64,000 bases of DNA, from contig KB911990.1 in NCBI GenBank assembly GCA_000383715.1, positions 52,481 through 116,480 on the forward strand, written 5' to 3'. The notes below the pieces were generated by a model. The model was not told where the DNA came from and did not search any database. It saw nothing but the letters and a program-made list of their open reading frames with translations. Origin of the DNA: Verrucomicrobia bacterium SCGC AAA164-E04 (lineage in GTDB: Bacteria; Verrucomicrobiota; Verrucomicrobiia; Limisphaerales; AAA164-E04). Positions 30,001 through 31,725 of this stretch are shown here, piece after piece; the first letter of the stretch is position 1; each line of letters opens with the position of its first letter. Position numbers and translations under genes: made by a program.

Positions 30001-30397
30001 TTTAATCTTTCTGTTTCCTAAGTCTGGCGATGGTATCAACGCAGATGGACCTTGGTATAGATTTATCAGGATTTGGCAATATTAGATTTTCTTTTTTTGA
30101 ATATTTTTTACGCAAAACGAAGACGGAAACTGCCAATATAAGGGAGTTGAAATCACATATTACGAGGTTTTTGGGGCACTTTTTACGTTTTTTTTCGGTC
30201 TAGCTAAACATGACCTCGCAAATAGAGAGCTAGAGAAAAAACATTCATCGAATGGTGCAGAAGGAAAAAAGCCAGGAAGTGATTAACTCCCTGGCTCGAG
30301 ATGAGTCATTTCTTGAATTGGAAACTGACAGGAATTAAATCGTTCAATTCGCTGATCTTTGTTTAGAAACGGTTGACCGACGTAAAGAAAGGAAGGC
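30001..30397. other. Intergenic region upstream of EF-G2
   Basis: About 400 AT-rich bases without a supported gene. It should hold the minus-strand promoter of the EF-G2 gene, though I found no promoter with convincing spacing. The part near 30264-30296 contains the terminator of the repeat-protein gene. T-runs at about 30090-30110 and 30180-30195 are notable but unassigned. Confidence 0.4.
30264..30296 (-). terminator. Intrinsic terminator of the Cys-rich repeat protein gene
   Basis: AGCCAGG (30270-30276) pairs with CCTGGCT (30290-30296), with three more inner pairs AGT/ACT after one mismatch. On the minus strand the stem is followed by TTTTTT (30269-30264). It lies about 100 bases after the stop codon at 30398. 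Confidence 0.75.
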
Positions 30398-31525
30398 TCA
30401 CTTCACTGAAATCTCAGAAGCTGTGAATTCCAACTTGCCGTTTATATCAGCAATTGTTCCTTGAGCCACAACGGCAACAGTCGATTGACATACTTTGCTG
30501 TGAAATGAGCGACTGACCTTGTTTTGATCCAGAGCGTAGATCAAATCCTTGCCGTCCACTGAGACTCTGATGGCATTCTGGCATGTTCTTGCCTGCTTGA
30601 GCTCACATTTGAGGCACAAGGCCTCTCCTGTCAGGGTTTTTTTCTCCTGAAGTTTAAGACTGGTTGGGGTGAAAATGGATTGATCCCCTTCTTCAGCCAG
30701 AGTGCCAACGGCGACAATCTCCGCCTGAGCAGAGCAAAGGTTCTTGTGAAAACCGTTACTGCATTCGTTTTTTGCAAAAACGTAAAGTTTTTCTTTACCG
30801 TTGATGGTTGTAGTCAAGGCGTTTTGACAGGTATCAGATTTTTTGAGGGCACATTTCAAGCAGCTGCCAGTGCCTTTGATGGTCAAACTCGCCGGGACTT
30901 TTTTCTTGCCCGTGTCGACTTTCGACTGTTTGCCAGAAACCTCTTCTATTTTGGATGCCGTGATTTTCTTCACACCACCAACTTCCGTGAGTTTACCGTA
31001 AACGACCGTGGGAGTTGACTTTTGACAAACTTTTTCATGATAAGCCTTGCTCACATCATTGTGTTCTAGGAGGTGGAGTTTGCCATCGACAATGATACCG
31101 TTTTGACAAGCGCTGGTCAGTTTGCTGATGCACTTGGTGCATACCCCTGTTCCTTTGAACGTTTGATCGCCTGATGATTTCTTCTCAGCTACCTCTGATT
31201 TTGCTAAATCTCCTGCAAGACTGATTTTGGTAGCCACAAGGACTTTCTTACCCTCGACATCCTTGACAGAACCAACCGCAGTAATGTTGGCAGTTCCAGA
31301 ACAAAGATTTTTGTGAAATGCCTTACTAACGGCGTTGTGTTCGAGCAAATAGAGGGTGTCACCTGATTTCAACGCATTCTGACATGCATCCGTTTGTTTC
31401 AATTTGCATTTGGCACAGCTGCCAGTGCCGGACAGAGTTACCTCAACCGAAGCAGCAAAAACGCTGGATTGGTAGCCCACCACAAGAGCCATGGCACATG
31501 CGAGTGCAAGAAGTGTCTTTTTCAT
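30398..31525 (-). CDS. Secreted protein of four tandem Cys-rich (CxxC) repeats
   Basis: 375 residues with a signal peptide (about 1-25, cut after FAA). The mature part is four copies of one 80-90 residue unit. Each has GTG.C.KC (Cys pairs 37/40, 129/132, 222/225, 304/307), a third Cys in the (S/T)-x-CQN motif (48, 140, 233, 315), a V/CS..(F/Y)H.(K)xxC motif with the fourth Cys (75, 167, 264, 346), and a beta-rich tail ending in TA..I. Single-unit versions occur as small exported proteins in Planctomycetes and Verrucomicrobia (DUF6370-like, from memory). Four cysteines plus a histidine per unit could bind metal or form disulfides. No function is known. Distance between first and fourth Cys is 38, 38, 42 and 42, so units 1-2 and 3-4 form two subtypes. 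Confidence 0.8.
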   Translation of the reverse strand: MKKTLLALACAMALVVGYQSSVFAASVEVTLSGTGSCAKCKLKQTDACQNALKSGDTLYLLEHNAVSKAFHKNLCSGTANITAVGSVKDVEGKKVLVATKISLAGDLAKSEVAEKKSSGDQTFKGTGVCTKCISKLTSACQNGIIVDGKLHLLEHNDVSKAYHEKVCQKSTPTVVYGKLTEVGGVKKITASKIEEVSGKQSKVDTGKKKVPASLTIKGTGSCLKCALKKSDTCQNALTTTINGKEKLYVFAKNECSNGFHKNLCSAQAEIVAVGTLAEEGDQSIFTPTSLKLQEKKTLTGEALCLKCELKQARTCQNAIRVSVDGKDLIYALDQNKVSRSFHSKVCQSTVAVVAQGTIADINGKLEFTASEISVK

Positions 31526-31725
31526 AATATGTAATAATCTTTGGAGCAGGTCGCCTGTGAATGAAACAGGCTATTTGAATCTATGGTTTTCCTGATGCCT
31601 CGTCGTGAGGATATCTGGATCAAATAACTGAACGTTGGTATCTTATCATGGAATACTACCTTAGCAATCAATAAATCGCGGACTGAGTCACCCGTTGATT
31701 TACATTGCAAAGACATGCATTGCCC

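Follow-up and report, generated by a model that had tools for sequence, protein, structure and literature searches.

The 64,000-nucleotide stretch of DNA analysed here (the window) encodes an exported protein of 375 amino acids that consists of four tandem units of the Pfam family DUF6370 (PF19897), and we tentatively favour the reading that each unit is an extracytoplasmic OB-fold metal-thiolate site, probably for zinc, so that the four-unit chain would be a multivalent binder. The domain itself is already known, by name only; what is new is its occurrence as four copies on a single chain, together with the evidence that points to a metal site.

A four-unit DUF6370 protein

The coding sequence (30398..31525, minus strand, as are all features given below) is supported by its open reading frame, by Pfam and by orthologs. 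PF19897 matched four stretches of the protein (E 5.5e-23, 81.3 bits vs a Pfam gathering cut-off of 25), showing that the repeat pattern is not due to chance, and the ordered CxxC, C, C series is present in all four. More precisely, each unit has a CxKC, the cysteine of a C-Q-N and the cysteine of a [FY]HxxxC, and locating these positions confirmed the four tandem units with CxxC, CQN and FHxxxC cysteines that an earlier note on this DNA had described. The window protein had no match near any NCBIfam cut-off, no credible sequence relative was found among solved structures (best E 1.7), and a literature search on DUF6370/PF19897, limited to the library available, returned no paper and no function for the family.

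The earlier description of a secreted protein is likewise supported, as the frame opens with a signal peptide (MKKTLLALACAMALVVGYQSSVFA, residues 1-24, 31454..31525) that is of a typical kind when judged by eye. The ‘LALAC’ at residues 6-10 was considered as a lipobox and is probably not one, being too close to the N-terminus and not kept in orthologs. Unit 1 (residues 27-106, 31208..31447; type A, short hairpin) carries the motif residues C37, C40, C48, H71 and C75, and is followed by a flexible linker (residues 107-118, 31172..31207; pLDDT under 50) that is longer in the window’s genus than in genus g3 in the ortholog alignment. Unit 2 (residues 119-198, 30932..31171; type B, short hairpin) carries C129, C132, C140, H163 and C167, and a Lys-rich linker (residues 199-211, 30893..30931) separates the two A-B pairs. 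Unit 3 (residues 212-295, 30641..30892; type A) carries C222, C225, C233, H260 and C264 together with an extra C255, and unit 4 (residues 294-375, 30401..30646; type B), the source of the OB-fold model below, carries C304, C307, C315, H342 and C346. Unit limits were cut by motif, and units 3 and 4 abut, with a two-residue overlap at their boundary. The fifth cysteine of unit 3, C255 (30761-30763, NECSNGFHKNLC), is present in the window’s genus and absent in the sister genus g2 (L047). Past the stop codon, an intrinsic-terminator-like hairpin with a T run (30269..30297) was recognised by consensus match only. Upstream of the gene lies a palindrome (about 31551-31570, GCCTGT-N7-ACAGGC) that is almost fully kept within the genus but absent from L047.

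Conservation of the motif and distribution of the units

A protein search for orthologs found the gene in 11 of 11 genomes of its GTDB family, either complete or truncated by a contig end or by masking, and the named matches were Verrucomicrobiota MAGs, with Pedosphaera sp. and Limisphaerales bacterium among their labels. Five complete proteins from three genera, the window’s own included, share every one of the 16 motif cysteines and of the four FH histidines without change, the other four being 49-68% identical to the window protein. This invariance down to about 49% identity bears out the earlier argument that sixteen retained cysteines imply selection. Over 143 non-redundant domains the site residues were the most conserved positions, structural glycines aside (C11 99%, C14 98%, C22 97%, C53 99%, K13 90%, H49 89%, in unit numbering), with H49 absent in about 10% of domains; Q23 and N24, next to the cysteines, were also conserved.

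DUF6370 was found in 171 of the 293 genomes sampled from the order, and in only 11 of 388 drawn from the phylum, one of which was the window’s own. Among the distinct ORFs collected, 151 had one unit, seven had four, three had two and one had three; these counts are partly shaped by sampling, one of the two-unit ORFs (L029) is a four-unit protein cut short at a contig end, and genomes with two domain matches were only partly inspected, so that further two-unit proteins may exist. Within those bounds, the numbers agree with the earlier statement that most relatives have a single unit. The single-unit exported proteins resemble the window protein in their four ordered cysteines, signal peptide and domain length of about 75-85 residues, and differ from it in having one unit rather than four. 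Proteins with four units were confined, among those seen, to family f1 (Pedosphaerales/Limisphaerales, Verrucomicrobiota), making this architecture a lineage-specific variant of a known domain. The earlier note had called four units in one exported chain unusual, and the form is indeed rare, but it is fixed in one bacterial family, and two- and three-unit proteins occur elsewhere. The three-unit protein of G040 (f31) and the two-unit protein of G068 (f59) also have tandem DUF6370 units after a signal peptide; the G040 units and one G068 unit group apart from the four-unit family in the tree, which suggests that these proteins arose by separate duplications.

Several further relatives were recorded during this survey. 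Two loci named Candidatus Kuenenia (L060 and L062) also bear Verrucomicrobiota-like units. At L054 / L157, the label Akkermansia muciniphila on one contig is probably wrong, as a counterpart exists in genome G116, which groups in the window’s order. By eye and profile match, L118 (1-1749) combines kinase-like, thioredoxin-like and DUF6370 stretches in one protein.

The repeat is likely a duplicated A-B pair

The offsets from first to last cysteine in units 1-4 are 38, 38, 42 and 42, and it is as offsets that the spacings in the earlier note hold, the residues between numbering 37 or 41. That note had split the units by this spacing into subtypes 1-2 and 3-4, a division that the spacing does not support. 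The sister genus g2 has a short unit 1 and no other short unit, and in g3 the offset is 42 throughout; the spacing thus reflects a 4-residue deletion, in unit 1 of g1 and g2 and in unit 2 of g1 only, and varies between genera. Unit trees instead joined units 2 and 4 in a clade with 95-96% bootstrap and placed units 1 and 3 together (95/87 in one tree, 78/52 in another), and the residue after the last cysteine reads S/T, Q, S/T, Q across units 1-4 in each of the seven complete orthologs that were compared. On the trees and this signature, the likely history is that an A-B pair was duplicated before the family diversified. The A-B-A-B order is preferred rather than proven, since an AU test on an alignment of only 84 columns did not reject units 1+2 or units 3+4 as clades (p 0.30 and 0.32).

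Each unit is predicted to be an OB fold

AlphaFold2, run on unit 4 with 31 relatives, returned a confident OB fold (pLDDT 96.6, pTM 0.87), with predicted strands at 2-11, 24-30, 33-39, 57-68 and 71-81 and a helix at 43-52, between strands 3 and 4. The full-length model of the four-unit chain was of low confidence (pLDDT 75.7, pTM 0.42). A Foldseek search with the unit 4 model returned mostly OB folds, with Rim1 as the best match (E 5.3e-4), and VIA-align placed its neighbours near Z 8, among them PriB, potempin A (8b2m, Z 7.9), a NigD-like protein (4pqx, Z 7.9) and the C-terminal domain of NlpE (2z4i, Z 7.6). The last three are extracytoplasmic OB folds, as the DUF6370 unit would be, but share only 7-17% identity with it, and a Z under 8 may reflect a common fold only; these neighbours show a shared fold rather than a shared function, and their functions cannot be transferred.

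In the model C11 and C14 stand at the end of strand 1, C22 comes just ahead of strand 2, and C53 lies between the helix and strand 4, right after the helix. Since strand 1 of an OB barrel runs next to strands 2 and 4, the cysteines of a unit should all lie close together. The structure prediction of a single unit that had been proposed earlier thus gave a clear fold, with the clustering of the cysteines following from topology only.

Metal ligands or disulfide partners

The earlier note had left two uses for the cysteines, metal binding or a disulfide ladder, and the choice between them can now be narrowed towards metal without being settled. The main rival to a metal-thiolate site is that two structural disulfides staple the OB fold of each unit, in a chain that would be adhesive or bind a ligand elsewhere, like the secreted potempins and NigD-like proteins; we regard this as a serious possibility, if a somewhat doubtful one. 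Exported cysteines usually oxidise. The presence of VKOR in the window genome and genus indicates that the envelope is probably oxidising and that disulfides could form there. The motif offers an even number of cysteines, four per unit, and 119 of the 151 single-unit ORFs have exactly four. Moreover, L018 has lost both cysteine 2 and cysteine 3, the joint loss expected under one of the possible disulfide pairings, and the secreted OB neighbours named above would suit such a scaffold.

Against disulfides stands the behaviour of position 22, the third cysteine. Where this column is filled in the 143 domains, histidine is the only replacement. Six anti-sigma-like or membrane-anchored proteins from two families (L222-L224 of f91 and L229-L231 of f66) have this histidine with the spacing unchanged and free of gaps, while L225-L228 of f91 retain the cysteine. 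Exchange of cysteine for histidine is a common event among metal ligands but not among cysteines paired in disulfides, which favours a metal site, although the proteins concerned belong to the divergent, sensor-type part of the family, and the f91 ones have an extra cysteine at position 9, so that their cysteine count may still be even. The number of cysteines per single-unit ORF points the same way: beyond the 119 with four, 14 have five, nine have seven and none has six, so that extra cysteines come in ones or threes and never in twos, though many of the seven-cysteine proteins belong to one family and are not independent events. Losses in L019, L100 and L122 leave three motif cysteines, and the conservation of K13, H49, Q23 and N24 beside the cysteines also speaks against a stapled fold, as does the zinc-cluster context of single-unit genes described below. 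Seven-cysteine single-unit proteins of the type CCAKCC ... GTC or ATC were seen at L007, L082, L098, L144, L145, L153, L176 and L185, mostly in f26.

Relatives occur in zinc-uptake clusters and as putative sigma-linked sensors

Genes for CobW with CobW_C, ABC-3, FUR and ZnuA recur near single-unit DUF6370 genes of several lineages. At L150, L052/L164, L167, L055 and L065 single-unit genes lie near CobW GTPases, variously accompanied by a WD40-like protein, an ABC-3 permease, an ABC ATPase, ZnuA and a FUR-family regulator. A DUF6370 gene lay within 6 kb of a cobW-family gene in 5 of 71 genomes (G034, G035, G039, G074 and G150, although the gene in G034 matches the cobW superfamily just broadly and more weakly) where 0.45 pairs were expected by position alone. 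The corresponding Poisson p of 1e-4, or 1e-3 when G035 and G150, which share family f26, are taken as one, treats genomes as independent, ignores relatedness and rests on a reading of listed coordinates. Zur-type zinc-uptake clusters (ZnuABC, COG0523/CobW GTPase, FUR-family regulator) thus contain single-unit DUF6370 genes of several lineages, several of these genes coming from one subclade. The window’s four-unit gene, unlike them, lies outside any zinc-uptake cluster and so lacks the location expected of a Zur-regulon member, its neighbours being an EF-G-like gene and other unrelated genes. The neighbourhood of four-unit genes is conserved within the genus and hardly beyond, changing between genera.

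In a second setting, the DUF6370 unit follows a transmembrane segment and the gene stands directly after a sigma-70-type factor (L204-L206 of f91, L207 of f17), an arrangement that resembles that of anti-sigma sensors; the N-terminal part of these sigma-linked proteins gave a zf-HC2 match in one only, below threshold. DUF6370 forms the C-terminal part of membrane-anchored anti-sigma-like proteins at L204 (4549-5331), L205 (3942-4691), L206 (3516-4187), L224 and L229-L231, several of their genes being directly downstream of sigma-70-type factors. Small exported Cys-rich proteins of the FACGSCGCSAKK... type, in an 81-aa frame of L133 and at 4191-4475 of L206, adjoin sensor-type DUF6370 genes and an RND efflux pump.

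The identity of the metal bears on the role. It is unlikely that the sites hold another soft metal (copper(I), cadmium or iron) and serve detoxification rather than zinc supply: a Cys-rich site would suit such metals, and a sensor-type gene of f91 adjoins a small Cys-rich exported protein, a TetR regulator and an RND efflux pump, but the genes that recur beside single-unit members are uptake genes (ABC-3, ZnuA, cobW, FUR), and methionine is missing from the best-conserved positions of the 143 domains. Less probable still is a redox-active CxKC, working as a thiol redox sensor or reductase module with the sigma-linked forms sensing oxidation, since the CxxC motif, the anti-sigma-type sensors among relatives and the union of DUF6370 with thioredoxin-like and kinase-like stretches in L118 must be set against third and fourth cysteines as highly conserved as the CxxC, a unit model without a thioredoxin fold and a Cys/His exchange at position 22 that a redox pair leaves unexplained.

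A model for the four-unit protein

In the metal-thiolate reading, the four cysteines of a unit would form one site on a small extracytoplasmic OB fold, the FH histidine would serve as an extra or second-shell ligand, and the bound metal would most likely be zinc. Carried on flexible linkers in an exported chain, the two A-B pairs may then act as a multivalent metal buffer or carrier, while in other bacteria a lone DUF6370 unit would work within zinc-uptake clusters or form the outer sensor part of sigma-factor regulators. The binding of a metal, its identity as zinc and the buffering or carrying role of the four-unit protein are all inferred. A metal site is favoured by the Cys/His exchange, the odd cysteine counts and the single-unit genes in zinc-uptake clusters, and the zinc link is extended by analogy from the single-unit relatives to the four-unit protein.

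More broadly, DUF6370 may be an unrecognised extracytoplasmic metal-thiolate OB module, widespread in one Verrucomicrobiota order and used singly in zinc acquisition, as the outer part of ECF-type sigma sensors, and as a four-site buffer in one marine family, a wider picture that we hold with reserve. The domain occurs in more than half of the order’s sampled genomes with no assigned function, and the cysteine exchange, the gene context and the sigma-linked forms turn it into a testable hypothesis of a metal site built from cysteines in an exported protein. Metal sites made of cysteine only are uncommon outside the cytoplasm, and one with four such sites in marine bacteria, if true, would bear on how scarce zinc is kept.
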